From contig NZ_JAPDPI010000003.1 of assembly GCF_026013615.1 (NCBI RefSeq), forward strand, positions 124,001 through 188,000: a DNA stretch of 64,000 bases. Direction: 5' to 3'. Below are positions 3,066-60,423 of the stretch, piece after piece (position 1 is the stretch's first letter; each line of letters begins with the position of its first letter). This DNA is from Plebeiibacterium marinum. GTDB lineage: Bacteria; Bacteroidota; Bacteroidia; Bacteroidales; Marinilabiliaceae. A program made the position numbers and the translations under genes. Under the pieces are notes generated by a model. The model saw only the letters and a program-made list of their open reading frames with translations, did not search any database and was not told the DNA's origin.

Positions 3066-3183
3066 GATATTGATATAATTATTTATTATGGATAAAATAT
3101 GTTGCTTTTGTTTTTAGATACAATAGTTCGGCAAATATTTATAACTGTCATATTTACAAGCGTCTACAATTTGTAGCGCAAAA

Positions 3184-3622: not shown

Positions 3623-3699
3623 ACAATATATAATGCCAATAACAACTTGAAGTATGCCGGGAAGTATATAACTCCCCGACATAACATTGGTATTAACAA

Positions 3700-4074
3700 C
3701 TATTCTTCTTTAACGCCTCTTGTTGCATAGGCATCAAACATGTCCATTAACGAACCTTCTAATTTATCCTCTTCTACTTTTTCAAGATAACAATACACAT
3801 CATATCCTCCTGAAACCCAATATACAGTTACCTCATCCTCTTTAAGTTCTACACGAGTCGCCTGTGTATCCGGCTTTCCTTCCTGCTTAACCACACCTAC
3901 AACTTTACCCTCTTTTTCTTCCAAAGTTATAATAATAGTAGCATCTCCACTTGGGGTACCTTCAACCAATACAGTCCAGGTATCCACTAAACTTTTTTCT
4001 TCAGCTTGTGCGTTTACTGCAAAAGCAGAAAATAAAAACATCATCCCTACAATAATCTTACTAATCGTTTTCAT
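3700..4074 (-). CDS. small secreted protein of unknown function
   Basis: A 124-residue protein. Residues 1-24 form a signal peptide (MKTISKIIVGMMFLFSAFAV, cut near NAQA). The mature part of about 100 residues is acidic and alternates in a way that suggests beta strands (ATIIITLEE, KVVGVVKQEG, DEVTVYWVSGGYDVYCYLEK), as in small lipocalin-like folds. I do not recognise the family. It lies 30 bp downstream of the outer-membrane receptor gene on the same strand, so it is probably the second gene of that operon and acts in the periplasm or at the surface. A GC-rich inverted repeat just past the stop (3654-3682) could end the transcript but lacks a T-run. Confidence 0.7.
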   Translation of the reverse strand: MKTISKIIVGMMFLFSAFAVNAQAEEKSLVDTWTVLVEGTPSGDATIIITLEEKEGKVVGVVKQEGKPDTQATRVELKEDEVTVYWVSGGYDVYCYLEKVEEDKLEGSLMDMFDAYATRGVKEE

Positions 4075-4103
4075 AATATAAATATTTAAAAGTTATGTAT
4101 TAA

Positions 4104-42934: not shown

Positions 42935-45700
42935 ATGCACAATTTTAAGTTTCATACAAATTCGATTATTATCCTCATATTAGCTTTTCTACTAAATAGC
43001 TGTATCGAAAAAAAAACCAATAAGATCATTATTGGTTTTAGCCAGTGCACAAGTAGTGATCTGTGGAGGCAATCAATGAATAGTGAAATGTTCAGAACAG
43101 CTTCTTTTCATCCAGAGCTAGAACTCATAATTAAAGATGCAAAGGGGGAAAACTGGAGACAAATAAAACAAATTGAAAACTTTATTGAACAGAAAGTTGA
43201 TTTGTTAATTATATCACCCAACCAATCTGATCCAATCACAGATATAGCAGTCTCTGCATTTGAACAGGGTATTCCAACAATCATTATTGATAGAAAAATT
43301 AACTCATATAAATATTCTGCCTATATAGGGGCCGACAACTATGAAATTGGTAAAAATGTAGCACAATATTTAGGTACATTATTTAATACTCCTAAAAAAA
43401 TCATTGAAATAACTGGTCTAGAAGGTTCATCTCCTGCACAAGAACGTCATAATGGTTTTATTAATGGCATTAAACCCAATTCACAACTTAAATTAGTATA
43501 TAGTGAGGATGGGAAATGGAACCAACTAAATGCAGAAGAAATTACAAAAAACATTATTGATTCTATTGATTTTGACGTGGTATTTGCACACAATGATATT
43601 ATGGCTCTTGGTGCAAGTAATATTATTAACAAAAATATCAATAAAAAAGTATTTATTATAGGTATTGACGCTCTTCCTAATTTAGGATTAGATATGGTGG
43701 ATAAAGGAATTATCAACGCATCTTTTTTATACCCTACAGGAGGAAATGAAGCCATCAATTTAGCTTTAAAAATATTGCAAAAACAACCTCATCATAAATT
43801 AAATCTTTTATCAAGTGCAATTGTTGATGAAAGCAATGCAAAGGTTTTAAATCTTCAGGCTGCACAATTAACCATATTTCAAGATCAGATTGAAAAACAA
43901 ATACAAAACATCAAGAATCAAGAATTAAAATACAACAATCAAAAAACTTTGCTTAATACAACTGTCATCAGTTTAATTTTACTTGTTATATCTATCGTTG
44001 CATTATTTATTTCTTACCTATTAAAAAATAAAAAGAATCTTGAACTCGCAGAGAAAAGTGTAGCCATCCAGAAACAGAAAGATGCCATTGAAGCACAAAA
44101 TGTACAGATTAAAAAAATGCATAAACAGATTGAAGATGCCACTCAGGCTAAGTTAACTTTTTTTACAAATATTTCGCACGAGATTAGAACTCCACTCACT
44201 TTAATTAAAGCGCCCTTAACAAACCTTATGCAGAAAATTCCTAAAGAATATGAATCATTTAAATGGGATCTGGCATTAATTAATAATAATACGGACAGGT
44301 TATTAAGATTGATCAATCAACTTCTTGATTTTAGAAAAACTGAAACCGGCAAATTACAATTAGCTGTTTCAGAAAATGAATTGGTACCATTTTTAAAATC
44401 AATATATAATGTTTTCGTACCATTAAGCAGACAAAAGCAAATAAACTTTTCTTTGTTAACCGACCAAAATGACATTAAACTATATTTTGATATTAATCTC
44501 TTTGACAAAGTAATTTTTAATATTTTATCAAATGCATTTAAATTCACTGATAAAAATGGAGTAATAAAAATTAAAATTAACTCATCCCATATTTCAAAAG
44601 TTGCAATATGCATTACAAATTCAGGAGATCCGATACCTGAAGAAGAACAAAAAAACATATTCACCCGTTTTTATCAACAAAGTCATCATTCCCATATGGG
44701 TACAGGTATTGGTTTAAGCCTGTCAAAAGAATTTATTGAAATGCATAAAGGCAAATTAACATTAAGCAGTAGTAAAGAAACAGGCAATACATTCTGCATT
44801 GAATTATATAAGGGAAAAGATCATTTTGAAGAAAAAGACATCATATCAAATGAAGATCAAATATCTATTGATAATATATTACCCATAAACTCCACTAATG
44901 AACATTCTGATTTTGACAATAGTATCCAATCGGACATCAAGCTTTTAATAGTTGAAGATGATGAAGGGCTGCAGGAGTTTTTAGTACACTTATTGAGCTC
45001 AAGATTTCAAACACAACTGGCTTCCAATGGTCAGGAGGCACTTGAAATAATTGAAGAAAATCAACCTGATTTAATTTTGACAGACATTATGATGCCAGTA
45101 ATGGATGGTTTACAACTTACACAACAAATAAAAAGCAATGAAAACACTAACCATTTGCCTATAATTATGCTCACGGCAAAAACTCAAATTGAACAAAAAA
45201 TAGAAGGTGTTTCGTTGGGAGCAGATGCCTATATTGAAAAACCTTTCAACCCGGATTATCTAATTATTAAAATTCAAAAGATTATTGAATCAAGAGCAAT
45301 ATTAAAAAAGTATTTCAAAAAAAATCTATCGCTACCTGAATTTACTGAAAACGAGAATACTTCTTTAGAAGAAAGATTCCTTCAAAAAATAATTGCTATT
45401 GTTGATAAAAATTACAATAATTCCAGATTTGGAGTAGAACAATTAGGAGAAGAAATTGGGTTATCAAGAATTCACCTATATAGAAAAATGAAGAATATTG
45501 CAGGTCTGTCACCAAGTGATTACTTAAACAAATACAGACTACGGAAAGCTGCAGAACTAATAAAACAACATTCTGATTCAATTAACAATATTTCTTTTTT
45601 AACAGGATTCAATTCTCATGCATATTTTAGTAAAAAATTTAAAGATGAATATGGCTTTTCTCCTTCTGAATACGAAAAAAGAAATAAATCAAGCCAATAG
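42935..45700 (+). CDS. hybrid two-component sensor-regulator with periplasmic sugar-binding domain
   Basis: A 921-residue protein that holds a whole signalling path. Residues about 30-305 form a periplasmic type-1 sugar-binding domain (IIIGFSQCTSSDLWRQ; IIIDRKINSYKYSAYIGADN). A membrane helix (about 342-363) and a short coil lead to the histidine kinase, H415 in FFTNISHEIRTP, with ATPase motifs NILSNAFKFTD and GTGIGLSLSKEF. The receiver has D717 in LILTDIMMPVMDG, and an AraC domain ends the protein (about 812-918). This plan matches the B. thetaiotaomicron fructose sensor BT1754. The N-terminus has a lipobox-like LLNSC (C23), unusual for this class. It converges on a GH32 gene with 3 bp between stops. 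Confidence 0.93.
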   Translation: MHNFKFHTNSIIILILAFLLNSCIEKKTNKIIIGFSQCTSSDLWRQSMNSEMFRTASFHPELELIIKDAKGENWRQIKQIENFIEQKVDLLIISPNQSDPITDIAVSAFEQGIPTIIIDRKINSYKYSAYIGADNYEIGKNVAQYLGTLFNTPKKIIEITGLEGSSPAQERHNGFINGIKPNSQLKLVYSEDGKWNQLNAEEITKNIIDSIDFDVVFAHNDIMALGASNIINKNINKKVFIIGIDALPNLGLDMVDKGIINASFLYPTGGNEAINLALKILQKQPHHKLNLLSSAIVDESNAKVLNLQAAQLTIFQDQIEKQIQNIKNQELKYNNQKTLLNTTVISLILLVISIVALFISYLLKNKKNLELAEKSVAIQKQKDAIEAQNVQIKKMHKQIEDATQAKLTFFTNISHEIRTPLTLIKAPLTNLMQKIPKEYESFKWDLALINNNTDRLLRLINQLLDFRKTETGKLQLAVSENELVPFLKSIYNVFVPLSRQKQINFSLLTDQNDIKLYFDINLFDKVIFNILSNAFKFTDKNGVIKIKINSSHISKVAICITNSGDPIPEEEQKNIFTRFYQQSHHSHMGTGIGLSLSKEFIEMHKGKLTLSSSKETGNTFCIELYKGKDHFEEKDIISNEDQISIDNILPINSTNEHSDFDNSIQSDIKLLIVEDDEGLQEFLVHLLSSRFQTQLASNGQEALEIIEENQPDLILTDIMMPVMDGLQLTQQIKSNENTNHLPIIMLTAKTQIEQKIEGVSLGADAYIEKPFNPDYLIIKIQKIIESRAILKKYFKKNLSLPEFTENENTSLEERFLQKIIAIVDKNYNNSRFGVEQLGEEIGLSRIHLYRKMKNIAGLSPSDYLNKYRLRKAAELIKQHSDSINNISFLTGFNSHAYFSKKFKDEYGFSPSEYEKRNKSSQ

Positions 45701-45703
45701 TTC

Positions 45704-47281
45704 TTACCTCCAGATGCTTTTCATTTTATAAACTTCTATTTCTTTTATGGAGGTACAGGATTTTAAATTTTCTATCTTAATATTGTAGTCTTTAGGAAAA
45801 AAGCGAGTAGTAGCAACATATTTCCCATCATTAATAAATAATTCTACAGATGTTCTGTCAATAAACATATCCAATTTTAATTGAGATTGACTACCAATCG
45901 GAACATCTGATATAGAAGTAAATTGATCTCCTAATACATTTGGGTCACTTACTTTACGAAGAATTTCGATATATCCTTTATCTTTACTATAATCAAGATT
46001 CAATTGTTGATCAACACTTTCAAACAAAACAAGAGACATTCGATCTTCTTTTGTAAGATCAAATACTACATGAATCTCTAATGAATGACAGTTTTCCATT
46101 TCCCTTGTTAAAGAGTTATTTAACTCATCTAAAGTGCTGAATTTGATTTTAACTTTACCTTTTCTTAATTTACTAGTCTCCCTAACTGGATTTTGGATAA
46201 TTTCATAACCATTAGTGCTTTTTTCAAGATATACTTCACGAGGAAGAGACATCACTCCTTTCCATTTTTGGTTCGGGATCTGATTTACATAGTTCCAATT
46301 ATTCATCCAACCAATCCAAATTCTTCTTCCATCTTTGTCAGGAATATCAGACCAACTATATGCGCCCCTAAAATCTTTGCCATAATCATTCCAACAGACA
46401 TTAATGTATTTCTCTCTTAAAGCCAAATCAATTCCCCACACTGTCTCTTTTCCTTTATAATTAATTTGTTCCGGAACAAACTCCTCTCCATCAAAATCGC
46501 CAATAATACAAAGACCGCCCATACCTTGTTTAATGGACTGATCACCAATATCAACCTTTAATATCCACTTTTTAAGTGTTGAGTCTCTGTTGACAGGTAT
46601 CGCAAAAAAGTCTGGATTATCCCATAATCTACCTTTTTGCTTTTCTCCAACAAATTCGCTCATAAACGTCCAGTGTATTAAATCTTTAGAAGAGTAAAAT
46701 GAAAGTTTCTGTTGATCTGCATTTGTTAATACCATAACCCATTTTTCATCAGGATTATACCAAAAGACTTTTGGATCTCTAAAATGCTCTGAACCAATAT
46801 CCAGAACAGGATTAAACTCATATTTATGCCATGTCTTTGCCCTATCATTACTATAGGCTAAACACTGATATTGCCTATTATTATCTATTCTGGATCCTGT
46901 ATAGATTGCAACTACCGGTGGATGAAAACCACCTCCCAATCCACTAGTGTTATCTTTATCAACCACAATACTTCCGCAAAAAACCATTTCTCCATCAGTC
47001 TCTGATATGGCAACAGGTTGTTCTTCCCAATGTATTAAATCCGGACTTATTGCATGCCCCCAACTCATATGCCCCCATTCTATACCATGAGGATTATATT
47101 GATAATACATATGATACTCTCCGTCATAGTAAAATAAACCACTTGGCACATGCATCCAATTTTTCATTGGAGAAAAATGATATTGTGCACGATATGCTTC
47201 TTTATAACTATCGTTTGTATTACATCCTAATGAAAACAAGATCAACAAAAAGGAAATATAATTTATTATTTTTTGCATCAT
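45704..47281 (-). CDS. GH32-family lipoprotein lacking the catalytic acids (probable pseudo-enzyme)
   Basis: A 525-residue lipoprotein (LFSLGCNT, C20) with the GH32 plan: five-bladed propeller (about 33-350) and C-terminal beta-sandwich (DRTSVELFINDG). Invertase-family nucleophile motif WMNDPNG reads WMHVPSG here (W42 to G48), so the nucleophile aspartate is V45. The acid/base motif WECPD reads WDNPD, so glutamate is D221. The transition-state motif RDP is intact (R168-D169-P170). The two GH32 genes upstream keep all three. The frame is long, undisturbed and its fold residues are conserved, so it looks selected rather than decayed. It may bind fructan or fructose without cutting it. It follows the binding-protein gene at 47419. 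Confidence 0.88.
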   Translation of the reverse strand: MMQKIINYISFLLILFSLGCNTNDSYKEAYRAQYHFSPMKNWMHVPSGLFYYDGEYHMYYQYNPHGIEWGHMSWGHAISPDLIHWEEQPVAISETDGEMVFCGSIVVDKDNTSGLGGGFHPPVVAIYTGSRIDNNRQYQCLAYSNDRAKTWHKYEFNPVLDIGSEHFRDPKVFWYNPDEKWVMVLTNADQQKLSFYSSKDLIHWTFMSEFVGEKQKGRLWDNPDFFAIPVNRDSTLKKWILKVDIGDQSIKQGMGGLCIIGDFDGEEFVPEQINYKGKETVWGIDLALREKYINVCWNDYGKDFRGAYSWSDIPDKDGRRIWIGWMNNWNYVNQIPNQKWKGVMSLPREVYLEKSTNGYEIIQNPVRETSKLRKGKVKIKFSTLDELNNSLTREMENCHSLEIHVVFDLTKEDRMSLVLFESVDQQLNLDYSKDKGYIEILRKVSDPNVLGDQFTSISDVPIGSQSQLKLDMFIDRTSVELFINDGKYVATTRFFPKDYNIKIENLKSCTSIKEIEVYKMKSIWR

Positions 47282-47418: not shown

Positions 47419-48417
47419 TTATTTTTCATACACTTGTGTTTCTGAATAAACTCCGGCATCTATTATTTCAGGTTGAATATTCTCTGCTGTAATCAGGATT
47501 GGTTCAATATAAACTACAGGTACATTAAAAGCACCATTATATACATATTTAACATCTATATCTGGAAGCTGTTTTTTGTTCAGGATACCTAAGGCTATGT
47601 CTGCTACCTGATAGGCTAGTTTTTTTAACGGATGTAATACCGTCATGCTCTGTTTTCCCTTTATGATGTTTTTTATTGCTCTTAGCTCTGCATCCTGTCC
47701 TGATACAAATACATCTTCATACTTATATTTTTCAAGCAGAGATATGGCACCTTCTGAAAATCCATCATAACAACTAATAATGGCATCAGGCTTTTCACCT
47801 GTCAATTTCAACACTTTTTCTAATTCAAAAGTGGCGATTTCTTCACTCCATTTCTCAATATAAGTTTTGTACAAGACTTTTATATCTCCTGATTTTACCT
47901 TTGAAGTAATTGCATTTTCTATAGATTTCATTATTACAGGAGCATTCTGATCATACATATCTCCTCCCAAAATAACGTAATTACCTTTAGGCTTTTGAGA
48001 CAACGCCGTATTTATAATCTGACTACCTACACGTTTACTATCTCCCCCCACAAAATAATCGAGTTTACAATTACGAATTAACCTGACATAACCAACAACA
48101 GGAATATCTTCTTCATGGGCATCCCTTACTATTGCAGATGCTGTATTTTCATTAACAGCTATTAGAACCAACACATCAATACCTTCTTTAACCATGTCGT
48201 GAAATCGTTCTCTTTGCAGGTTTTCATCATTTTCAGCCTGACGAATAACAACATCCACTCCTGCTTGTTGTACTCGTTCTTTAAAATACTCCGCTTCTCG
48301 AACAAAGCGTCCTACTGCATCAGTAGAATATAAAAAGCCTATTTTAACTTTATCATCAGATGTACATCCTTGCAGAAGTAGTATCATTGTCAAAATGAAT
48401 GTTCCTAATATTTTCAT
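47419..48417 (-). CDS. orphan XylF-like periplasmic sugar-binding lipoprotein
   Basis: A 332-residue lipoprotein (ILLLQGCTSD, C18) with a type-1 periplasmic binding fold close to the xylose-binding protein XylF: KIGFLYSTDAVGRFVREAEY, EGIDVLVLIAVNE, NYVILGGDMYDQNAPV, VSGQDAELRAIKNIIKGKQS. No ABC permease or ATPase gene is nearby. The ligand-contact pair normally reading D-R (as in the two hybrid sensors, IDRKI) is V111-R112 here (VVGYVRLIRN). It may bind a sugar differently, or act as a carrier or sensor partner. It follows a terminator and precedes the catalytically dead GH32 gene by 137 bp. Confidence 0.87.
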   Translation of the reverse strand: MKILGTFILTMILLLQGCTSDDKVKIGFLYSTDAVGRFVREAEYFKERVQQAGVDVVIRQAENDENLQRERFHDMVKEGIDVLVLIAVNENTASAIVRDAHEEDIPVVGYVRLIRNCKLDYFVGGDSKRVGSQIINTALSQKPKGNYVILGGDMYDQNAPVIMKSIENAITSKVKSGDIKVLYKTYIEKWSEEIATFELEKVLKLTGEKPDAIISCYDGFSEGAISLLEKYKYEDVFVSGQDAELRAIKNIIKGKQSMTVLHPLKKLAYQVADIALGILNKKQLPDIDVKYVYNGAFNVPVVYIEPILITAENIQPEIIDAGVYSETQVYEK

Positions 48418-48573: not shown

Positions 48574-49440
48574 CTATTGATATTTAAATTCATCAGGCAA
48601 TATCGGAGTAGCACCACTATTGGTACAAACAAAAGCAGATACATCTACAGCTTTTTGATGCAATACTTTTAACGGTTGCTTATTAAGTATTCCCATTATC
48701 ATGGTTGCAGTAAATGAATCTCCGGCACCAATTGTATCGGCAACTTCAACTTTGGGTGTAACAATAAATGATTGTTCGTTCTTTGTGATTAATAAACTAC
48801 CCTCTGAGCCTTTCGTTAATGTTAATAGGGTTAAATCATAATTATGCACTATTTGTTGACAGATTTCCTCTTCTGTTCCTTCCATTCCAAACATATCCTT
48901 AAAAACAACTATTTCCTCTTCATTGATTTTAAACACATTAGCAAACTGAAGAGATTTACCAATAATATCTTTCGAATAAAAATGTTGTCGTAAATTAATA
49001 TCAAAAACCTTTAAACATGTTTCGGGAACCATTTCTAATGCTTTCCAAATAGTTTTACAAGAAACCTCATTGCGTTGAGCCAAAGAACCGTAACAAATAG
49101 CATCTGCTTTTGCGAGCTTTTCTTTTGCAATTTCAGTTAATTCAATATTATCCCAGGCCACATCTTCATAAATTGTATAATTTGGAATACCGTTATTTAA
49201 TTGTACACCAACTGTACCTGTCGGTTTCTTAGTTACATATAGCCCATTCACAACATTTTCTTGTTCAATAATCCTGGTAATTTCTTTCCCAAGATCATCA
49301 TCTCCAATTGCACTAATAACTACACCTTCAGCACCTAATTGCATTGCGTGATATGCAAAGTTGGCTGGAGCACCACCTAATATTTTTCCTTCTGGTAATA
49401 AATCCCAAAGTATTTCACCTATTCCTATTACTGTATACAT
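48574..49440 (-). CDS. fructokinase, PfkB family
   Basis: A 288-residue ribokinase-family enzyme counted from the ATG at 49440 (an ATG at 49470 adds ten residues before the first strand). It has the substrate motif GGAPANFAYHAMQLGA and the C-terminal DTIGAGDSFTATMI with the catalytic base D241. A lid region (about 80-100) and the family nucleotide site (LTLTKGSEGSLL) are visible. It should phosphorylate fructose released by the GH32 enzymes and imported by the sugar porter encoded 151 bp upstream. Location in the locus supports fructose over other ketoses. A terminator follows. Confidence 0.9.
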   Translation of the reverse strand: MYTVIGIGEILWDLLPEGKILGGAPANFAYHAMQLGAEGVVISAIGDDDLGKEITRIIEQENVVNGLYVTKKPTGTVGVQLNNGIPNYTIYEDVAWDNIELTEIAKEKLAKADAICYGSLAQRNEVSCKTIWKALEMVPETCLKVFDINLRQHFYSKDIIGKSLQFANVFKINEEEIVVFKDMFGMEGTEEEICQQIVHNYDLTLLTLTKGSEGSLLITKNEQSFIVTPKVEVADTIGAGDSFTATMIMGILNKQPLKVLHQKAVDVSAFVCTNSGATPILPDEFKYQ

Positions 49441-49591
49441 GACTTTATATTTTTTATTAACTAAAGGCATAGAGTATTGATTTACACCTCCATATCTTAT
49501 GATAATATTTTTTTATTTTAATGAAGAGAGACTATATAAAGACACCTCTCTGCATTGTTAAAACACCCCCATTTCTGACTAAAATAACAGA

Positions 49592-50938
49592 CTAATCTAC
49601 TAGCCCAAGCTCCTCCTGAATTTGTTCTAAGGATTTACCTTTTGTTTCCGGGATTCGAATCAAGGTGAATAAGAATGCAAGAACACTAAATACAAGGAAG
49701 AACCCAAAAGTAAAAGCACCGCCCATTCCTCCAAGCATAATAGGAAAGAACTGCACTACTAATAAAGTACAAACCCAACTAATTGCAGTGGATACGGACA
49801 TAGCAAGACCACGTATTTTATTTGGGTATATTTCGGATGTTACAACCCACATAACAGGAGCAAATGAGGCTGCAAAAAAAGCTATAAAACCAAGGATAGA
49901 GATAAATACACCCAAGCCATCAACATTTCCTATATAAAAAGAGAATGTTATATAAGACAAGAACAAGATCATGCCTGCAGCTCCCCATAATAATAGTTGT
50001 TTTCTTCCTACTTTATCAATTAACCAAACTGCAACAAGGGTAAAAATAAAATTAATAATACCAACCAGTATCGATTGTAATAAAGCAGTACCTCCACCTA
50101 CACCTGTTTTTTCAAAAATAGTTGGCGCATAGGCAATAATTGCGTTAATACCTGTAATTTGTTGAAATACTGCTAAAAGAATACCAATAACTAATACTTT
50201 CCCCATATTTCCCTTAAACAGATCACTTAAGCTAACTCGTGTTGTATTTGTAGCTGACACTTTTAAACTATTTTGTATTTCTTCCAATTCACTTTCTGCT
50301 TCTTCAATATCAACAATCCTGTTTAAAACTTTTCTAGCTGAAATGAGATCTCCCTTCATTACAGACCAACGAGGTGATTCAGGAAAACTAATAATGGTCA
50401 GTAATAGAAATGGCACTGCAAAAATAATTGGGCTATACAACATTAAACGCCATCCTTCATGCATTTCTACAACACAAAAGTCAATTACATAGGCTATCAA
50501 AATTCCAACCACAATACCTAACTGATTCATAGTTCCCATTGTACCACGAATAGCAGGGGGGGTTAACTCACTAATATAAGTAGGAACAACAACTGATACC
50601 GCACCAACTGCAATACCACCAATTAGGCGAGCTATCATTAAATGAATACTACTCTGAGCAGCACCACTACCTAACGCTGAGATGGTAAAAAGAACAGCAG
50701 CAATAATCAGTGCTTTTCTTCTTCCTATTTTATCACTAATTGATCCTATTGTAAAAGCTCCGATTAAACATCCTGCAATCATAGAACTTACTACTAATCC
50801 CAACTCTGTATCATTTAATATAAACACATCTTTAATAAATGATACAGCACCTGATATAGCTGCCATGTTTACTCCAAACAACACACTTCCTAAAGCTGCT
50901 ATAAATATTGCCCAATATAAACCCTTCTTTGTTTTCAT
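49592..50938 (-). CDS. MFS sugar porter, probable fructose importer
   Basis: A 448-residue sugar-porter-family transporter with twelve helices. Hallmarks: SDKIGRRKALI after TM2, PESPRWSVMKG after TM6, QQITGINAIIAYAP in TM7, DKVGRKQLLLWG, and the final PETKGKSLEQIQEELG. The ATG at 50938 is preferred to a TTG at 50968. It belongs to the family of XylE and GLUT, which move hexoses by proton symport. Between the GH32 and fructokinase genes it is the natural route for free fructose across the inner membrane. Confidence 0.92.
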   Translation of the reverse strand: MKTKKGLYWAIFIAALGSVLFGVNMAAISGAVSFIKDVFILNDTELGLVVSSMIAGCLIGAFTIGSISDKIGRRKALIIAAVLFTISALGSGAAQSSIHLMIARLIGGIAVGAVSVVVPTYISELTPPAIRGTMGTMNQLGIVVGILIAYVIDFCVVEMHEGWRLMLYSPIIFAVPFLLLTIISFPESPRWSVMKGDLISARKVLNRIVDIEEAESELEEIQNSLKVSATNTTRVSLSDLFKGNMGKVLVIGILLAVFQQITGINAIIAYAPTIFEKTGVGGGTALLQSILVGIINFIFTLVAVWLIDKVGRKQLLLWGAAGMILFLSYITFSFYIGNVDGLGVFISILGFIAFFAASFAPVMWVVTSEIYPNKIRGLAMSVSTAISWVCTLLVVQFFPIMLGGMGGAFTFGFFLVFSVLAFLFTLIRIPETKGKSLEQIQEELGLVD

Positions 50939-51046
50939 ACTTTTTGAATTACTAACACTGAGTATCAAAAGATAATTTTTGATTTTATCTCACTGTCATT
51001 ATATTTATAATTCCTGATTCAATACTAAAAATTTGCTATATAAAAT

Positions 51047-52594
51047 TTACCAGATTGAAGACAGATTACTGATTGACCCACCAATTAATTCAACTTCTCC
51101 CTTTTGCGAAAATAAGCATACCGAAGTAAATTTATCTGCTGTAAATAACTGTTCTGTCATGCTAACTAAACCATCAACAGCAAATAATTCAACTGAGGAT
51201 TCATCTATGATGAGTTTTAAATCCAGCGACGGGGAACTCACAATATAAGGTGCGTTATGAATACCTGCAAATTCCTGGTTCGGACTGTCCCAGCCACAGT
51301 TACTCCTGTCAATAAAAAAAAGTTTATTTAAGTTATCGTAACCAATTTTTAGCGACTCATTTTTTTTATTTGATAAAATAATCCCAAAACGTTCACCAAA
51401 ATTCATTGCTGTATTGTTTTCGGTATTGAAGTTCAAGTCTATTTCCATCGGGAATTGTGGTTTCATATTAATCTCCTGCATTCCTGAGATTGTTGAACCT
51501 GAGATATTTTTTGAACCTGATTTTAGTTTTTCAAATTCTTTTACCGGCGACGAAATCATTAGATAGTCGTTATAGATTTCTGTCAATTCCAGAGTTCTTG
51601 GAAGGGTAAATACCCCCCTCCAGCCCGATGTCGGAATCTCATTTGCATATTGCCAGTTATTCATCCAGCCAATTAAGATCCTTCTGCCATCCTCATCCGG
51701 GATATCCGACCAGGTCACACCTGCGTAATTATCTTTGCCATAATCGAGCCATTTGGTTTTTTCTCCATGCGGTTCAAAAACATGTCCGTCAAAGTCACCA
51801 ATAAAGTATTGTGTCGCAGATCCTCCGTTTGGCCCTCCTGGATTGATGCTAACCAGTAATACCCATTTTGTTTCGTCTGTTCCTTCAATCTGCAAAGGAA
51901 ACAAATCGGGGCATTCCCACACGCCGCCATGTGCTCCGATTCCTACTCCGAATTCACTTTCCAGGGTCCAGTCGATTAAATTAGGCGAAGAATAGAAATT
52001 GATATGGTCGAGTACAGCAAGGGTCATAATCCATTTCCCGCTTTCTGGGTGCCAACTCACTTTCGGGTCGCGAAAATCGCGGATTCCAGGATTAGGCAAA
52101 ACCGGATTATTTTTATATTTCGTCCAGGTACGTCCTTTATCAAGGCTGTATGCAATTCCCTGGTACTGAAACTTATCAGTTCCGGCACTCTCCAACTCGC
52201 GGTTATGATAGGTAAAAATAGCTACCATGGGCGGAATGCCATTTTTACCCAAACCCGATGTATTTTCCCAGTCGATAACAGCACTTCCTGAAAAAATCCA
52301 TCCCAAGCTATCTGGATACAGGGCTATCGGCAGCTCCTCCCAGTGTATAAGGTCTTTGCTGATGGCATGCCCCCAGTGCATTGGTCCCCAAATTGTTGTA
52401 TCAGGATTATATTGAAAAAATAAATGATATTCTCCATCATAATAGACCATTCCATTTGGATCATTTGCCCAACCTGATTGAAGCGAAAAATGGATCTGAG
52501 GACGATATTGCTCAGTATACTTCTTCTGATCGTGCTTTTTAACACATGATACAAAACTTAATATTATTAAAAATACAGTAATTATATTTTTCAT
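51047..52594 (-). CDS. GH32 fructan exo- or endo-hydrolase, lipoprotein
   Basis: A 515-residue lipoprotein (LSFVSCVKKHD, C17). The propeller holds the nucleophile D45 in GWANDPNGM, the stabiliser D176 in DFRDPKV, and the acid/base E227 in GGVWECPDLF. The C-terminal sandwich has DESSVELFAVDG. The nucleophile motif has A in place of the usual M (WANDPNG), a minor change. It should release fructose from levan, inulin or sucrose outside the inner membrane. It follows the other intact GH32 gene by 45 bp and shares close sequence with it, so one arose by duplication. Linkage preference cannot be read by eye. Confidence 0.94.
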   Translation of the reverse strand: MKNIITVFLIILSFVSCVKKHDQKKYTEQYRPQIHFSLQSGWANDPNGMVYYDGEYHLFFQYNPDTTIWGPMHWGHAISKDLIHWEELPIALYPDSLGWIFSGSAVIDWENTSGLGKNGIPPMVAIFTYHNRELESAGTDKFQYQGIAYSLDKGRTWTKYKNNPVLPNPGIRDFRDPKVSWHPESGKWIMTLAVLDHINFYSSPNLIDWTLESEFGVGIGAHGGVWECPDLFPLQIEGTDETKWVLLVSINPGGPNGGSATQYFIGDFDGHVFEPHGEKTKWLDYGKDNYAGVTWSDIPDEDGRRILIGWMNNWQYANEIPTSGWRGVFTLPRTLELTEIYNDYLMISSPVKEFEKLKSGSKNISGSTISGMQEINMKPQFPMEIDLNFNTENNTAMNFGERFGIILSNKKNESLKIGYDNLNKLFFIDRSNCGWDSPNQEFAGIHNAPYIVSSPSLDLKLIIDESSVELFAVDGLVSMTEQLFTADKFTSVCLFSQKGEVELIGGSISNLSSIW

Positions 52595-52639: not shown

Positions 52640-54184
52640 TCAATGATTTACTGATTTTTGAATAGAATTGATTTTAAAATACTTAATAAATGAATTATTA
52701 GAACTTCCACTAATAGAGAAAGAATTATACTTGTATTCACTAAAAAACAGAACTGTCATTACTTTTTCACCACCGTTAATTAATATTTCTAACGAGGATT
52801 GATCGACAATTAAATCCAATACAATTTTCCCTTCCGATGGTTGTATATCGCATTTTATCTCCTTTTTAAATAACTGATCGAAATCCGAAATGCCACATTC
52901 ACTTCTATCAATACTCAAGGTTGAGTTTACTTTATCAAACCTTATAAATATTGATTCAAGTCCATTTCCGGTTTTTATTTCAAAATCATTTATATTTTCT
53001 GTTTCCATTTCAATTTCGGCCCAATAACTTCCATATTCTACAATGGAATTATTTTCCAGTTCGATACTTTTTTGCGGTGTATCAATAATGAGGACATCAT
53101 CATCACTCATTAAATTATTCAATTCTGCTACCGCTTCAAAAGCTAATAAGTATTGATCATTCTTCTGAATTAATTTAAGTTCAAGGGGTATGGTCATTTC
53201 ACCACGCCATCCTTCTGTTGGAGTAGCTCCAGCATAAATCCAGTTACTCATCCATCCCAGAAAAATCCTTCTACCATCTTTTTCAGAAATATTACTCCAG
53301 GTAACTCCTGCGTAGTTATCAATACCATTGTCTACCCATTTGATCTCATTATTTTCAGAAGTGAAAGTAGTTCCATCGAAACTACCAATAAAATACTGCG
53401 TGGCACTTCCTCCATTTGGCCCACCTGGATTTATACTCACCAAGAGTACCCACTTAATTTCATCACTTCCTTCAACTTGTAAGGGAAATAAATCAGGACA
53501 TTCCCATACACCGCCCTGTGCACCTCTTCCTGCACCAAATTCACTTTCAAGATGCCAATCTATTAAATTAGGTGACGAATAGAAGCTTACATGATCAAGA
53601 ACAGCCAACGTCATAATCCATTTCTGCGTTGGTTCATGCCAAATCACCTTAGGATCACGAAAGTCAACAATTCCTGGATTCTCTAAAACAGGATTTCCTT
53701 CGTATTTAGTCCACGTTTCCCCCTTGTCAGTGCTATATGCAAGACTCTGGGTTTGTAAACCATTATTACTTTTATGATGCGTAAAAATTGCTACCAACGG
53801 ATCATTATCGTTTGATTTAAATCCTGCTGTGTTATTTTTATCCACGACTGCACTTCCCGAAAAAATATAACCCATATCATCGGGATAAAGCGCAATTCCC
53901 TTATCTTCCCAATGAAATAAATCGGTACTTACGGTATGCGCCCAATGCATTGGGCCCCAATTTGTACCATCGGGATAATATTGATAAAAAAGATGATAGA
54001 CTCCATCATAATATACCATACCGTTAGGATCATTCATCCAATTTTCTTGTGGTGAATAATGAAACAATGGCCTGAGATTGCGATGTTTTAAAACCGGATT
54101 TGATACCACATCAGCGGTATCGTCTTTTGAACAAGAAATAAAGGAAAATAAGACCAGGGAATATATAATGTAAGATAATTTCAT
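52640..54184 (-). CDS. GH32 fructan hydrolase, lipoprotein
   Basis: A 514-residue lipoprotein (LFSFISCSKDD, C18). All catalytic motifs are intact: D52 in NWMNDPNGM, D177 in DFRDPKV, E228 in GGVWECPDLF. The C-terminal beta-sandwich has DQSSLEILINGG. It is the first enzyme gene after the uptake genes, behind a hairpin at 54202-54228. Together with the GH32 gene at 51047 it should depolymerise fructan captured by the SusC/SusD complex. Whether either is an endo-levanase cannot be told from sequence alone. Confidence 0.94.
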   Translation of the reverse strand: MKLSYIIYSLVLFSFISCSKDDTADVVSNPVLKHRNLRPLFHYSPQENWMNDPNGMVYYDGVYHLFYQYYPDGTNWGPMHWAHTVSTDLFHWEDKGIALYPDDMGYIFSGSAVVDKNNTAGFKSNDNDPLVAIFTHHKSNNGLQTQSLAYSTDKGETWTKYEGNPVLENPGIVDFRDPKVIWHEPTQKWIMTLAVLDHVSFYSSPNLIDWHLESEFGAGRGAQGGVWECPDLFPLQVEGSDEIKWVLLVSINPGGPNGGSATQYFIGSFDGTTFTSENNEIKWVDNGIDNYAGVTWSNISEKDGRRIFLGWMSNWIYAGATPTEGWRGEMTIPLELKLIQKNDQYLLAFEAVAELNNLMSDDDVLIIDTPQKSIELENNSIVEYGSYWAEIEMETENINDFEIKTGNGLESIFIRFDKVNSTLSIDRSECGISDFDQLFKKEIKCDIQPSEGKIVLDLIVDQSSLEILINGGEKVMTVLFFSEYKYNSFSISGSSNNSFIKYFKINSIQKSVNH

Positions 54185-54234: not shown

Positions 54235-55398
54235 TTAGTTTTTTTGAGATAAATAGTTTAATGAATTCTTCGTAATCAAATTAATATTATTTTGATAGGC
54301 ATTCACTCCATCAGGATTAATATCTCCTTCGCTATTCTGATTAAATTCAAATCCACCAATACCTTGATAAATAGCCTTTCCACTGAAGAAATCAGTAGGT
54401 AAAAGTTCGAGTACACCAGCCATATAGTAATCTCGTATTCCACCCCAAACACCAATGTAATTAACCTTGTTGGATGTTGTAAATGCAGTATAAGCATCTT
54501 CATCAGCGTTACCATATCCATGATATTGAGCAAGGTCCACCATTACGTAATTATGGTCTTCTCTATAGCCTGCTCCTATTATTGGCACCCATTTGTAACC
54601 GTCGCCATCTGTGCTAAAGGAAATACCCTTATATATCGGATGCGCAGTCATATCATGCGCACCAATACTGGCACCAATGCTCCACACATCACTATTCTCA
54701 AAACCAAGACCATCGCCAATAACCATGTTGTAGGTATTCGTTAGTCGGCCCATTGTCCAGAAATAACCACAAGCATATCCGTTAAATAAAAGATTTCCGC
54801 CGTTTTGATAATATTCTTTCATTTTATTTAAAACAGTTGCATCATGTGCAATTGCAGGTAAATCGCGTTCTGAATCATTATACCACCAAAGAACCCTGAA
54901 ATCATTTAAATCAACCTCTCCATTCTTTATGGCATCGAAGCTGATATATTTACCATTGTCATAATTAGCAAAAAACCATTGTGCAGCAGCTTGTTGATCG
55001 TCTTCCGTTATTCCGGCAACATTAGCAGCAGTTCCAAGGAAACCAATAAAAAATTGTTCTGTAACAGAAATTGTGTATTCGCTGTAAACATCACCATTCA
55101 CGATGGTAAAATCAATCGGATTCGTAAAATCCATGCCTGAAGTGATCGCCGGAGTGATTACAGCACCTTCTGTCAGCTGGATTTCAGGACTTATATTCGA
55201 AACGTCAGTTCCATCTGGCATCGTAACCACAATTGTTTTTTTTGCTTCATCAATAACACCTTCAACTCCATTAACTGAAAATTGAGATATTGTAACATCC
55301 GTATTCAATTCAAGGTTTGAAGTATATTCTTCCTCGCAGGAATTAAATACCAGTCCTGAAAGCAAGATGAATGTTATGTAAATAAAATATTTTTTCAT
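54235..55398 (-). CDS. DUF4960-type surface fructan-binding lipoprotein
   Basis: A 387-residue lipoprotein (GLVFNSCEEEY, C21). The N-terminal domain (about 35-115) is a DUF5018-like beta-sandwich (ISQFSVNGVEGVIDEAKKTI). The C-terminal part (about 115-330) looks like the DUF4960 domain found in fructan loci (FDAIKNGEVDLNDFRVLWWY; NGGNLLFNGYACGYFWTMGR), with many exposed aromatics suited to sugar binding. It follows SusD by 30 bp, the usual place of a surface glycan-binding protein. Domain names are recalled from the family and were not searched here. Confidence 0.82.
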   Translation of the reverse strand: MKKYFIYITFILLSGLVFNSCEEEYTSNLELNTDVTISQFSVNGVEGVIDEAKKTIVVTMPDGTDVSNISPEIQLTEGAVITPAITSGMDFTNPIDFTIVNGDVYSEYTISVTEQFFIGFLGTAANVAGITEDDQQAAAQWFFANYDNGKYISFDAIKNGEVDLNDFRVLWWYNDSERDLPAIAHDATVLNKMKEYYQNGGNLLFNGYACGYFWTMGRLTNTYNMVIGDGLGFENSDVWSIGASIGAHDMTAHPIYKGISFSTDGDGYKWVPIIGAGYREDHNYVMVDLAQYHGYGNADEDAYTAFTTSNKVNYIGVWGGIRDYYMAGVLELLPTDFFSGKAIYQGIGGFEFNQNSEGDINPDGVNAYQNNINLITKNSLNYLSQKN

Positions 55399-55428: not shown

Positions 55429-57165
55429 TTACCACCCATAATTTTGCTTGTACAAACCTTTACTAAAATCAATCTGATTCTGAGGAATAGGAAAGTACTC
55501 ATGCTTCCCTGTTGTAAATCGACCATCTTTCAGGTATTCCCTTTTGGTTTGCTCTTCAACAAAATAGCTATTGATATAATTTCCAGCTATTCCCCAACGT
55601 ACCAGATCGAAGAAACGGATTCCTTCCATTGCCAATTCAAGCCTTCTTTCCCAGCGCAAAGCCTGACGGGCAAATTCCTGTGTCCAGTCACAGTTTATAC
55701 CTGATTTATATATGTCCATGTTGTAGTTTGAACTTGGATTGCCATTGTTCATTTTCAACATGGCAGTACTATTGATTGCACGTTGCCGAATCTCATTAAT
55801 AATTGGCAGCGCTTCATATTGACGCCCTAATTCAATTAGTGCCTCAGCTTTCCATAATAAAACATCGGCATAACGAATGATATCAGTATTTTTCGAGCTC
55901 GCCATAAATGGAGGGACTTTTTGAAAACAATCGCAATCCGGTGATTGATTTTCTTTTAAGGATGAAAAATGTCCATAAATTTGAGTTGCCCTGGCCCAGT
56001 CTTTCTGATAAATAAAATTCGGATCATATTTCCAAGGATGTCCAGGTATTGCAACGGTATGGTCTAAACGAACATCAAAAGAATTGTTTTGAAAATCATC
56101 CCCCTCCGAAACATCTGAATTATTAAATGTGTCAAATTCTGGCAACCCATTTACATCTGTTTTAAATGAATTTACAAGGTTCTGACTTGGAATATGAAAC
56201 CAGCAACATCCGTACTCCGGATTCATTGGATAGTTTAACATATTTCCCCAATCCAAACGTCCTTTCGGTGTACCATCATCAACCGAACGCTGAATCGCAA
56301 AAACCGACTCACTACTACCTTCATCATGACTCCAAAGAAAGTTATACCCAAAATCGGCAAATAACCCATACTGTCCTGAGCTAATAACTTCATCTACAAG
56401 AGAAACTACTTCTTCTAGTTTTGAAGTATTTATACTTGTAACAGAATTATCATCTCCTTGCTCGTAAGCCTGATATAGTTTTGTTTTTGCCAAATAAGTT
56501 TTGGCTGTATATTTATTTGGTCTTCCCTTATCACTTTGTGTTTCCGAAAGATTGTTTGCAGCAAATTCAAACTCTGTAGCAATTTTATCCCATAGCTCAC
56601 TGTCGGTGAATTGTCGGTTAGACACGTCACTATAAGCATTTCCTTCTATCGTTTCATCTATCCAAGGAATATATTTAAACATGGTTTTCAAAACGAAGTA
56701 GTAATGTGCTCTTAAAAAACGCATTTCGGCCTGGCGTTTAACCTTCTCCGCATACTCATCTACAGAAAGTTTATTAATAACTTTAAGCGCCTCGTTAGCT
56801 CTGCCAATTCCAACATAAAGTCTATACCATTTTTGATCAATAAGAGGATTATCGGCAGTGTTAAAGGCAAACAGTTCCAAAAAATTAAACTCCCAAATAT
56901 CACCGGTGCCACCACCACCTTTATAAGAATCACCACTTGTAATATCAGCGTAAGGCCACAATGAGTTAGGAGCAGTATAATGATCATTACCTAACTCGGA
57001 GTAAGCAGCAATTACCATTCCTTCTGCATTCTCTGGAGTAAGTAATTGATCTCCACTGATAATACTTTTGGGCGCCATATCAAGAAAGGAATCAGAACAG
57101 GAGAACAAAAACCCTGCTAATGCAATTGTCAATATTTTTATCGTTAATTTCTTCATGATTTTCAT
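55429..57165 (-). CDS. SusD-family fructan-binding lipoprotein
   Basis: A 578-residue lipoprotein (LAGFLFSCSDSF, C23) with the RagB/SusD plan: QAEMRFLRAHYYFVLKTMFK in the helical core, a long insert-rich middle, RYADVLLWKAEALIELGRQY, and the C-terminal RWERRLELAMEGIRFFDLVR. It is larger than the SusD at 19292, as expected for the oligosaccharide-binding branch. It starts 3 bp after the SusC stop and should cap its pore. The GH32 and DUF4960 neighbours point to levan or inulin oligosaccharides. Confidence 0.95.
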   Translation of the reverse strand: MKIMKKLTIKILTIALAGFLFSCSDSFLDMAPKSIISGDQLLTPENAEGMVIAAYSELGNDHYTAPNSLWPYADITSGDSYKGGGGTGDIWEFNFLELFAFNTADNPLIDQKWYRLYVGIGRANEALKVINKLSVDEYAEKVKRQAEMRFLRAHYYFVLKTMFKYIPWIDETIEGNAYSDVSNRQFTDSELWDKIATEFEFAANNLSETQSDKGRPNKYTAKTYLAKTKLYQAYEQGDDNSVTSINTSKLEEVVSLVDEVISSGQYGLFADFGYNFLWSHDEGSSESVFAIQRSVDDGTPKGRLDWGNMLNYPMNPEYGCCWFHIPSQNLVNSFKTDVNGLPEFDTFNNSDVSEGDDFQNNSFDVRLDHTVAIPGHPWKYDPNFIYQKDWARATQIYGHFSSLKENQSPDCDCFQKVPPFMASSKNTDIIRYADVLLWKAEALIELGRQYEALPIINEIRQRAINSTAMLKMNNGNPSSNYNMDIYKSGINCDWTQEFARQALRWERRLELAMEGIRFFDLVRWGIAGNYINSYFVEEQTKREYLKDGRFTTGKHEYFPIPQNQIDFSKGLYKQNYGW

Positions 57166-57168: not shown

Positions 57169-60100
57169 CTAAAAGTTTAAATTAACTCCGATTGTATAAC
57201 TAGCTGGAATCGGATATGCAAATCCAGGAGATTCAGGGTCAACACCTGTAAATTTATCCTTCCCTTTATTATCTTTGATTGTAAAAAGATTCTGCCCTTG
57301 AAGGTAGATTCTGGCAGAAGTTAGTCCAATTTTCTGAGCCAACTGTTCTGGAATAGTATATCCAACTTGGAGGTTTCTTAATTTCAGATACGATCCGTTT
57401 TCAATAAAATATGTCGAAGTGCGATTCTCATTATTAGTATCTGTTAAAGTTAGCATTGGAATAGTAGAACCAGAATTTGTAGGCGACCAGGCATCCAAAG
57501 TTCTGCTCCCAAAGTTGGTTCCTTGCCATATTGAAGTAAAGTCGGTAAGATGTTTATATTCATTATATACATCTGCCCCATAAATACCTTGAAAAAATAA
57601 ATTTAAATCGAAATTTTTATAGGAAAAACTAGCATTAAAACCATATTCAAATTCAGGCGTTGGGTCTCCAATCCAAGTTCGATCAAGTGCATCAACAACA
57701 CCATCAGGCTGGTTAACCCAATTTCCATCGGCATCTAATCCTCCAATATCTTTATATCGTATTCTTCCAATTCCTTTTCCTGTTTGTTCAGCATGGTTAT
57801 TTACCTCTTCTTGATTCTGGAAAAGACCATCAGCTATATATCCAAAGTGAACTACATCTGAATGACCGAGTACCGTTTTACCTGTTGCAGGATCTCCTGG
57901 ATAACCTGTTAATACTTCATCTGGCAAAAAGGTAACCTCTCTTTTGTAAGACGAAATATTTGCCGAAAGATCCATCTTAATACCATTTGAGAATGCTTTA
58001 TTATAACCTATCACAAATTCCCATCCCTTATTTTCAAGCGTTGCTCCATTTTGCCACTGATTTCCACCTTCTCCTTTTACAGCTAAATAAGGTGGTTCAA
58101 TTAAAATATCATTTGTTTCCTTAAAGAAGTAATCCATACTTCCATAAAGTGCTTGATTAAAAAATCCAAAGTCAATTCCAAAATTCGTTTGATTTGCTTC
58201 TTCCCACTTTAGCATAGGGTTTCCTTCGCGTATTTTTCTAAATCCTGAAGGTAAAGTACCGGTATCTGATCCAGTAATATCGTATGCCGTTCCAGAATCA
58301 AAATCCCAAGTTGGATCAATGCCATAATCTGTTCGATAAATAGAATAAATAGCTTCATTACTGATTTCCTGATTTCCTGTGATTCCCCATCCAGCCCTTA
58401 ACTTTAGATTAGATATTGCATCAAAGTTATCCTTAATAAAACTTTCTTCGCTCATTCTCCATCCCACAGAGAAAGCAGGAAAAACTCCGTACAAATTATC
58501 TTTACCAAAACGTGAAGATCCATCACGACGTACAGTACCGGAGAACAAATATTTTGAATCAAAAACGTAGTTAATCTTTGCGAAATAAGAAAACAGGGAA
58601 TTTCCTGCGCCACCACCACCATTCAGAATTTTTTCTGTTCCAGCATCAAGGAACATATAATCAGCATCCTCAATAATATAACCTTCTCTACTACCATAAA
58701 ACGATTCATACTCCGCTTTAACAGCCTCAGTACCAGCAACAATATCTGCAACATGCTTACCAAATTCAAATTTATAATTTAGCGTATTTGTCCAAGTGTA
58801 TGACAAATTGTGCATTTGAGAAGTTGCTACTCTGTTAATATCACTGATTAGAAAACCTGACATATAACTATAATCCATTTTTCGGTAATAATTTTCAGTA
58901 TAATCAATACCGTAATTTGTTCTGAAATGTAGATCCTTGATAATTTCTAAATCCGCAAAAATATTTCCAAAAACTCTTGCTGTTTTTGAATGATTTTGTT
59001 TATTCTGTTCTATCAAACGAACAGGATTATGACGGTCTGTCATACCAGGCGCTGGTCCTCCCCAACCACCATCAACCGAATAAACTGGCACAACAGGTTG
59101 TTGCACTAAGGCAAGATACATTACATCATCAACCGGAATATCAACATTATCGACACGAGAAATAGTGAAATTTTCTCCAACTTTCAGTTTCCCATCAAAG
59201 AAATTATAATCTGTGTTTATTCTCGCAGTTATTTTGTTTGAGTTGGTTTCTTTAATTATACCGTTATGATCATAATAATTCAAGGATATCAACGAATTTC
59301 CTTTCTTATTTCCATTGGAAATAGTTAAATTATACGATTGGATCAATGAATTCTGTGAAACTTCATCATACCATTTTGTATCAGCCGGGCGCATGGTACG
59401 TGCCGGATCAATATACTCAGGTAGTAAAATTCTATCAAGCACAGCATTATCACCATCCGTGTGCCAGTCGTATTTATAAATACTCGATGTTGGTGTCAGA
59501 CCGTCGTTAATAGATGCCTGCCAATTTACAAGTCCTCGTTCGTATGTATTTAAAACATCAAGTTTTGTGCTGAACTTTTGAACTGTTGCATATGTATTAA
59601 ACTCAATTTTAAGTTGTCCTTCTTTACCTTTCTTAGTAGTAATTAGAATTACTCCGTTACTTGCCCTGGAACCATAGATACTTGCAGCTGATGCATCTTT
59701 CAAAACCTGCATTGTTTCAATATCATTTGGATTTAGCTGTTCTATACCTCCAGTAGTAGGCATTCCATCAATTACATAAAGAGGATCATTGCTTCCTCCT
59801 CCCATTGTACTACCCCCTCTAATTCGAACAGTAGCATACGCTCCTGGGTTACCATCAGTTGTTACTGTGACTCCTGCCACACGTCCTTGAAGAGCTTTTA
59901 CTGCATTTCCTGTTGGAGTTTCTTTTACCGCTCCCATATCGACAACACCAACAGCCCCAGTTAAATCTGCTTTTTTCTGTGACTGATAACCTGTTACAAC
60001 AATAACATCTAAATTTGTCAGTTGATCAACCATAGTAATAGAAAGGTCGTTAACAGGAGATGTTACATTATAGGTAACAGATTCCATTCCTATAAAAGAA

Positions 60101-60345
60101 AGAGTTAATGTTGACCCAGTAGGAGCTTTTATACTAAAAAGACCATTGACATCACTAATAGTTCCTGTATTTGTTCCTTCAATAACCACTGAAACCCCTG
60201 GGAGAGGATTTCCCGTTTGATCCATTATTGTACCTGATATGCTTACATCTTCCTTAACTTGTGCAGTTATTGGAATAAAAGAAAGCATAAATAAAGACAG
60301 AATTATATTCCTGAGAATTCTGCTTTCAAAACTGTTTTTCTTCAT
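57169..60345 (-). CDS. SusC-family TonB-dependent fructan transporter
   Basis: The ATG at 60345 gives 1058 residues with a standard signal peptide (ILRNIILSLFMLSFIPITAQ). Earlier starts (ATG 60393, TTG 60414) would add a charged leader. Domains: carboxypeptidase-like (about 35-115, GTIMDQTGNPLPGVSVVIEG), plug (about 125-235, with DASAASIYGSRASNGVILIT) and a barrel ending in phenylalanine (TIGVNLNF). Unlike the SusC at 20720 it has no STN domain, so control runs through the hybrid sensors rather than a sigma/anti-sigma pair. It imports fructan oligosaccharides with the SusD encoded 3 bp downstream. Confidence 0.95.
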   Translation of the reverse strand: MKKNSFESRILRNIILSLFMLSFIPITAQVKEDVSISGTIMDQTGNPLPGVSVVIEGTNTGTISDVNGLFSIKAPTGSTLTLSFIGMESVTYNVTSPVNDLSITMVDQLTNLDVIVVTGYQSQKKADLTGAVGVVDMGAVKETPTGNAVKALQGRVAGVTVTTDGNPGAYATVRIRGGSTMGGGSNDPLYVIDGMPTTGGIEQLNPNDIETMQVLKDASAASIYGSRASNGVILITTKKGKEGQLKIEFNTYATVQKFSTKLDVLNTYERGLVNWQASINDGLTPTSSIYKYDWHTDGDNAVLDRILLPEYIDPARTMRPADTKWYDEVSQNSLIQSYNLTISNGNKKGNSLISLNYYDHNGIIKETNSNKITARINTDYNFFDGKLKVGENFTISRVDNVDIPVDDVMYLALVQQPVVPVYSVDGGWGGPAPGMTDRHNPVRLIEQNKQNHSKTARVFGNIFADLEIIKDLHFRTNYGIDYTENYYRKMDYSYMSGFLISDINRVATSQMHNLSYTWTNTLNYKFEFGKHVADIVAGTEAVKAEYESFYGSREGYIIEDADYMFLDAGTEKILNGGGGAGNSLFSYFAKINYVFDSKYLFSGTVRRDGSSRFGKDNLYGVFPAFSVGWRMSEESFIKDNFDAISNLKLRAGWGITGNQEISNEAIYSIYRTDYGIDPTWDFDSGTAYDITGSDTGTLPSGFRKIREGNPMLKWEEANQTNFGIDFGFFNQALYGSMDYFFKETNDILIEPPYLAVKGEGGNQWQNGATLENKGWEFVIGYNKAFSNGIKMDLSANISSYKREVTFLPDEVLTGYPGDPATGKTVLGHSDVVHFGYIADGLFQNQEEVNNHAEQTGKGIGRIRYKDIGGLDADGNWVNQPDGVVDALDRTWIGDPTPEFEYGFNASFSYKNFDLNLFFQGIYGADVYNEYKHLTDFTSIWQGTNFGSRTLDAWSPTNSGSTIPMLTLTDTNNENRTSTYFIENGSYLKLRNLQVGYTIPEQLAQKIGLTSARIYLQGQNLFTIKDNKGKDKFTGVDPESPGFAYPIPASYTIGVNLNF

Positions 60346-60423
60346 AACACTTCGATTTAGAATACTTAAATTAGTTTCATCATTAAATTTCATGTAACGA
60401 TTTCTTTTTAACAATCGTTAATA

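Follow-up and report, generated by a model that had tools for sequence, protein, structure and literature searches.

The window analysed here, a stretch of 64,000 nucleotides from Plebeiibacterium marinum (GCF_026013615.1, contig NZ_JAPDPI010000003.1, positions 124,001 to 188,000), harbors a locus whose minus-strand genes follow the order HTCS1, SusC, SusD, DUF4960, GH32b, GH32a, MFS, pfkB kinase, PBP lipoprotein and P0001, the last being a degenerate GH32 lipoprotein (Table 1). Two hybrid two-component regulators flank the locus (HTCS2, with its sensor recognized by Pfam, and HTCS1, recognized by blastp), in addition to the stand-alone binding protein. The gene content resembles that of the levan PUL of Bacteroides thetaiotaomicron, which comprises SusC, SusD, a surface glycan-binding protein (SGBP), GH32, a transporter, a kinase and an HTCS; to these the window adds the PBP lipoprotein, P0001 and a second HTCS. 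The DUF4960 lipoprotein, a probable SGBP by its place after SusD and by analogy with the B. thetaiotaomicron locus, holds the SGBP slot beside SusD, while six genes separate SusD and P0001, so that P0001 does not adjoin SusD as an SGBP gene would. The lipobox cysteine of P0001 is followed by one acidic residue in positions +2 to +6 (CNTNDS), without the acidic cluster of DUF4960 (CEEEY) or GH32b (CSKDD), and the surface location implied by the first-pass annotation, which had suggested surface capture, is therefore not indicated. The Bacteroidetes-type promoter pattern TTTG-N(17-23)-TANNTTTG occurs once in the window (at 17328), fewer than the 5.9 matches expected; between 45500 and 49700, a sigma-70 scan returned 27 sites (21.9 expected), and three terminator-like sites were found (1.0 expected).

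Table 1. Features of the fructan locus in the window and positions of the second degenerate GH32 lineage in other loci (locus:positions).
Feature	Location	Strand	Basis and remarks
HTCS2, hybrid two-component regulator with Peripla_BP_4 sensor	42935..45700	+	Pfam; convergent, 3 bases from P0001 ORF
P0001, degenerate GH32 lipoprotein	45704..47281	-	525 aa; V45, D221, RDP kept
Codon 221, Asp for catalytic Glu (WDNPD)	46619..46621	-	Position from residue numbering; GAT in both species
Codon 45, Val for nucleophile Asp (WMHVPSG)	47147..47149	-	Position from residue numbering; GTG here, GTA in orthologue
Signal peptide with lipobox Cys20 (SLGC-NTNDS)	47222..47281	-	P0001 sequence
PBP lipoprotein, stand-alone (Peripla_BP_4)	47419..48417	-	Pfam; directly upstream of P0001; 90% identical beside the G008 orthologue
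pfkB-family kinase, probable fructokinase	48574..49470	-	Pfam
Sugar transporter (Sugar_tr, MFS)	49592..50968	-	Pfam
GH32a, intact WANDPNG, RDP, WECPD	51047..52594	-	Pfam and alignment
GH32b, intact WMNDPNG, RDP, WECPD	52640..54184	-	Pfam and alignment
DUF4960 lipoprotein, probable surface glycan-binding protein	54235..55398	-	Pfam; role inferred from place after SusD
SusD homologue	55429..57165	-	49% identical to Pfam-confirmed SusD of L094
SusC homologue	57169..60414	-	39% identical to the TonB-dependent receptor of L094, itself confirmed by Pfam
HTCS1, second hybrid two-component regulator	61069..63831	-	ORF; 39.5% identical to G008 HTCS2 orthologue (blastp)
Second-lineage gene, same genome (G000 C143)	L094:8217-9719		Directly after SusD
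Second-lineage gene	L095:12191-13642		Directly after SusD
Second-lineage gene	L193:6994-8568		Stop-to-stop; directly after SusD
Second-lineage gene	L181:9980-11521		Stop-to-stop; directly after SusD
Second-lineage gene	L182:8425-9966		Stop-to-stop; directly after SusD
Second-lineage gene	L166:11461-13035		Stop-to-stop; directly after SusD

The reading frame of P0001 contains no internal stop. Pfam recognizes GH32N over its entire profile (282 bits) and GH32C over positions 1-157 of 158 (64 bits), both above the cut-offs of about 22 bits, and an AlphaFold2 model built from a 42-row alignment (pLDDT 87.2, pTM 0.88) adopts the GH32 fold. Foldseek returned 149 PDB matches to this model at E <= 0.001, and the 50 best of them are all, by title, GH32-type proteins acting on fructan or sucrose, headed by the exo-inulinase 1y4w. 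By sequence and predicted fold P0001 is thus placed in GH32, in line with the first-pass annotation, in which the RDP motif, the propeller and the sandwich had been described as retained. The best-matching structures are exo-inulinases, namely 1y4w from Aspergillus awamori (TM 0.82, 31% identity), with InuAMN8 (8i12) similarly close (TM 0.82, 36% identity); unlike these enzymes, P0001 is a lipoprotein and carries D to V and E to D at the catalytic positions together with S102C, Y305R and A306G, the last three being changes beyond those listed before.

Alignment to relatives places V45 at the nucleophile position, where WMNDPNG has become WMHVPSG, and D221 at the acid/base position, followed by N222 and P223, where WECPD has become WDNPD, while the RDP motif is kept (R168, D169, P170) and with it the Asp that acts as transition-state stabiliser. 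The substitution of the nucleophile with His and Ser in place of the adjacent Asn residues is as first described. That both catalytic acids are replaced holds literally for V45 and D221, but E221D is conservative and leaves a carboxylate, so that the nucleophile is the only catalytic residue truly removed. Judged by its residues, P0001 lacks the Asp nucleophile and the Glu acid/base of an active beta-fructosidase and retains its RDP Asp.

The rarity of this combination was gauged on 293 GH32-like stretches gathered from 205 loci, many of them overlapping, and the window, from which 147 rows of at least 380 aa remained once exact duplicates were removed. At the three catalytic columns, 120 rows read D/D/E, nine gap/D/E, six E/D/E, two V/D/D and one D/D/K, the remaining nine being members of a second degenerate lineage (discussed below); V/D/D is confined to P0001 and its orthologue among the 147. 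In the 120 canonical (D/D/E) rows, 90 columns reach 90% conservation or more, and P0001 keeps 76 and breaks 14 of these (P32A, N44H, D45V, N47S, L58M, F59Y, S102C, G148A, E221D, C222N, G252Q, Y258C, Y305R and A306G), against a canonical median of one and six of 120 canonical rows that break at least 14; the contrast at columns 45 and 221 is flattered, since the canonical rows were selected for D/D/E and these columns are 100% conserved by construction. With the threshold raised to 95%, P0001 breaks 11 of 62 columns, and one canonical row of 120 does equally badly. The losses lean to the motif stretches (42-48, 101-104, 167-170 and 221-224), which lose 6 of their 17 conserved columns, compared with 8 of 73 outside them (Fisher p 0.022 at 90% columns, 0.012 at 95% columns and a weaker 0.08 at 98% columns).

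Among the residues that P0001 keeps are W42, H57, Y60, Q61, W69, W74, R168, D169, W325, N328 and W329, which in GH32 structures line the fructose pocket; most of the presumed sugar pocket would hence be preserved. N44H, N47S, S102C, C222N, Y305R and A306G may nevertheless spoil fructose binding, and the pocket could have been reshaped for another ligand, for example a charged or differently linked sugar, instead of plain fructan. At the columns of these six changes, conservation among the canonical rows is 96-98%, most of the six lie in or beside the catalytic motifs, and Y305R together with the loss of D45 would shift the pocket from strongly acidic toward neutral or basic. However, the inulinase 3rwk has D-G for Y-A at 305/306, so that both positions vary in enzymes, and the scanned genes of the locus are of fructan type by Pfam, hence we regard a different ligand as unlikely, if worth keeping in view.

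GH32 catalysis employs D, D and E in a retaining reaction, as described in two articles (PMC6560043, PMC9741242). Established chemistry applied to the P0001 sequence makes loss of retaining catalysis very likely because the nucleophile is gone: D45V would stop the covalent first step, in which the fructosyl-enzyme forms, and the shortened acid/base E221D would weaken any remaining catalysis. A slow or altered reaction through D221, D169 or H44, on an unusual or activated fructoside or with inversion, would find its residues in D169 and the carboxylate at 221 and would fit the purifying selection described below, but V45 could not attack C2, H44 would need a different geometry, and GH32 nucleophile mutants serve as inactivated enzymes, which leaves residual catalysis rather improbable.

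It is more probable that P0001 grips sugar rather than cutting it. Among the PDB matches to P0001 are, by title, sugar complexes of GH32 proteins mutated at the nucleophile or the acid/base (for example 3u14, 3u75, 4ffi and 7bwc). For the levanase BT1760, the E221A mutant is reported to have lost activity about 4,000-fold while still binding levan strongly and holding levantetraose (PMC6560043), and the D42A mutant to bind levan mainly at its active site (PMC7618045, where the roles of BT1760 and BT1761 in the levan PUL are also treated). These laboratory mutants (E221A, D42A, D42N) resemble P0001 in that one catalytic acid has been removed, but each has one designed change, whereas both catalytic positions and their neighbors are naturally changed in P0001. 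Because dead GH32 mutants still bind, fructan or FOS binding without cutting is, by analogy, rated as the most likely activity of P0001, and with most of the aromatic and polar platform of the fructose pocket still in place, the protein would most likely hold the fructosyl end of a fructan or fructo-oligosaccharide.

P0001 was searched for in 61 relatives, 393 genomes of the order and 247 of the phylum (partly overlapping samples, strict E-value limits, with the best few candidates scored in the order and phylum searches), and a collection of 84,980 species was scanned with six peptide patterns, giving 59 loci; relatives beneath the E-value limits or outside the six patterns would escape detection. 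One other V/D gene was found, in Plebeiobacterium sediminum (L033, the same contig as G008 C276, with an identical gene), whose protein is 98.9% identical, and the gene thus occurs in two of nine genomes of the genus group at the E-value limit of the 61-relative search. Other relatives with readable motifs, among the matches listed and some of them partial, are canonical or belong to the second degenerate lineage. A wide WMHVPSG/WDNPD clade was not found in the 61 relatives, in the order and phylum genomes or in the pattern scan of 84,980 species, and viral contigs held no relative; all 949 records from a plasmid collection, compared by identity alone, are less than 60% identical to P0001. The conserved clade in similar loci for which the first-pass annotation had proposed to look is therefore reduced to two species.

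Between these two species, P0001 differs at 12 silent sites and in six codons with replacements; if single-base changes were neutral, so few replacements would arise with a probability of 2e-5 to 1e-3 (one-sided, transition weights 1 to 8). H44, S47, C102, D221, N222, R305 and G306 are identical in both proteins, while codon 45 is silently different. A frameshift or assembly error was rejected, as the same residues occur in two assemblies with differing flanks and the frame is intact in both, which bears out the earlier view that separate substitutions in an undisturbed frame argue against sequencing error. The synonymous distance (dS, YN00) is 0.05 for P0001 and 0.65 for HTCS2, 0.32 for PBP, 2.0 for the kinase and 0.46 for MFS, and a tract of high identity, roughly 1.8 kb long (from about 45.6 to 47.4 kb) and 98.9% identical over the gene, spans little beyond the degenerate gene, with flanks at about 83-94% per 150-base bin. 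The low dS relative to the neighbors and the short tract indicate that the gene was recently exchanged between the two lineages, so that its two copies are not independent and the pair shows purifying selection since the exchange, not long persistence. The occurrence in two species only, the recently exchanged tract and a longer branch would also suit an enzyme gene decaying before its first stop; the intact 525-codon frame in both species, the 12 silent against six replacement changes, the 76 of 90 conserved columns kept and the leaning of the losses to the motifs make decay highly improbable.

The first-pass annotation had pointed to two intact GH32 paralogues nearby and to recruitment from an enzyme. 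The motifs of GH32a and GH32b are indeed intact, but neither is nearest kin to P0001. Thinning at 75% identity left 87 of the 120 canonical rows; the 75 nearest to P0001 and 10 others entered an 85-row tree, calculated without the motif columns by a quick method and without bootstrap. Here, P0001 and its orthologue are sister to GH32 of Candidatus Arcticimaribacter (SH-aLRT 97), within a 23-row group (SH-aLRT 98) in which 11 rows are from Planctomycetota and four (G107, G073, G363, G423) from the order to which the window belongs; another group takes in GH32a and GH32b together with most GH32 of Bacteroidales. The branch of P0001 measures 1.13, against 0.61 plus 0.14 or 0.21 for the sister pair. 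A duplication of GH32a or GH32b is not supported, as P0001 lies in a clade rich in Flavobacteriaceae and Planctomycetota and both neighbors in another group, and recruitment from the neighboring enzymes finds no support in the tree. P0001 would rather descend from an exo-inulinase-type fructosidase whose clade is now found in Flavobacteriaceae, Planctomycetota and others.

In P. sediminum, the MFS, kinase, PBP, P0001 and HTCS2 proteins are 89-99% identical to those of the window, whereas the best matches reach 51% for SusC, 40% for SusD, 32% for DUF4960 and 52-56% for the GH32 enzymes. With 89-99% set against 32-56% identity, P0001 goes with a five-gene cassette and not with one SusC/SusD pair. 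Of 71 genomes of the bacterial family, 51 carry the PBP family, so that its link to P0001 is weak when taken alone; the PBP lipoprotein as a specific partner was therefore discarded, its presence saying little. In the fructan locus L184 (G011), the pairing seen in the window recurs: a PBP lipoprotein (2783-3742) is followed by a GH32-type lipoprotein (3915-5573), which has kept RDP and ECP.

That P0001 stays linked to PBP and HTCS2 in two loci that otherwise differ would also be expected if it were a structural or regulatory partner of an active GH32, of the PBP lipoprotein or of the HTCS2 sensor, with no need for sugar in its pocket. A precedent is tobacco Nin88, reported to activate cell-wall invertases indirectly (PMC3713406), and the GH18-like BT1284 of Bacteroides, catalytically impaired, is reported to show no measurable binding of high-mannose glycan (PMC11180146). 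The presumed sugar-platform residues are, however, kept in P0001, which is unexpected for an unused pocket, and a partner role of this kind is very doubtful.

The most likely reading, for which we consider the chances about even, is that P0001 is a lipoprotein that binds fructan or FOS without hydrolysing it and belongs with an import/sensing cassette, where it would keep oligosaccharides at hand for import or sensing. The further changes around the pocket and the case of BT1284, with no measurable binding of its expected glycan, weigh against this reading. This place is likely because P0001 travels with MFS, kinase, PBP and HTCS2 and not with one SusC/SusD pair. Of the binding protein originally proposed, the intact, selected, non-canonical GH32 with a very likely loss of catalysis stands, while recruitment from the neighbors is not supported and surface location is not indicated.

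Natural GH32 proteins that lost activity are known from plants, where Nin88 among the defective invertases is regulatory, yet the triad is stated never to be affected in them (PMC3713406), whereas it is changed in P0001. Within Bacteroidales, BT1284, which adjoins the active BT1285 judging by gene number, and a GH18-like protein of B. faecium are natural impaired glycosidases, as proposed for P0001, but they are TIM barrels reported throughout Bacteroidales species (PMC11180146), while P0001 was found in two species. No natural bacterial GH32 with a changed triad was described in the literature searched, as far as the accessible portions of open-licence full texts go. A pseudo-glycosidase in a PUL is of a kind already known, and is undescribed in GH32 as far as the open-licence literature reaches. 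Family-based annotation would label P0001-like genes as fructosidases, and counting them as enzymes misjudges which fructans are cut. If P0001 binds, it would be a natural counterpart, in a defined locus, of the dead-enzyme mutants of structural biologists, and the locus would make it possible to test how a PUL profits from a glycan that is held but not cut.

On another contig, the same genome encodes a second degenerate GH32-type lipoprotein of 500 aa, in which EMQLGAPKELF stands at the nucleophile motif and EWTDLEF replaces WECPD. Relatives are found in G003, G008, G049, G435 and G426, and a truncated one in G333. The gene lies directly after SusD in all six readable loci, with a canonical GH32 nearby, and no DUF4960 match (E 1e-3, ORFs of at least 150 aa, DUF4960 of the window as reference) was found beside it. 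Since the G435 and G426 loci share 98% identity across 14.7 kb, and the proteins of G000 and G008 share 93%, the six loci amount to four distinct ones. Four members break 34/89, 27/79, 41/88 and 48/89 conserved columns. The dN/dS is 0.27 for G000 and G008, against 0.03 to 0.10 in three neighbors, and 0.07 for G426 and G435. Surface exposure is uncertain, because in the members shown the stretch behind the lipid Cys is not acidic. With a first profile of this lineage, G435 and G426 scored below a canonical enzyme of G011, and in an order-wide profile search only G000 and G049 stood out, both of them rows of the profile.

The second lineage groups within Bacteroidales GH32 (four rows, support 100), and a single origin with P0001 was rejected (AU p 0.0026, with the long rows L168, L167 and L114 left out). 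It arose separately from P0001 and would be the older of the two, standing in the SGBP slot directly after SusD. Our tentative view, held at somewhat less than even confidence, is that fructan loci of Bacteroidales turned GH32 into non-cutting lipoproteins at least twice, once in P0001, with its fructose pocket kept and in an import/sensing cassette, and once in the older SusD-adjacent lineage. If so, PULs would have drawn fructan-handling proteins from the GH32 fold repeatedly, and two separate losses in one genome make the question of a repeated route testable.

Other unusual GH32 sequences were observed among the loci. A 754-aa GH32-type frame in G076 (L198:8020-10281) has WMNDPNG and RDP intact and WKCPD in place of WECPD, a single E to K change that is either real or an error. 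L168, L169, L174, L178 and L179 have N-E for N-D at the nucleophile motif (WTNEPHG, WTNETHG, WTNESYG, WANENYG) with the acid/base Glu kept, and Glu may serve as the nucleophile in these stretches.
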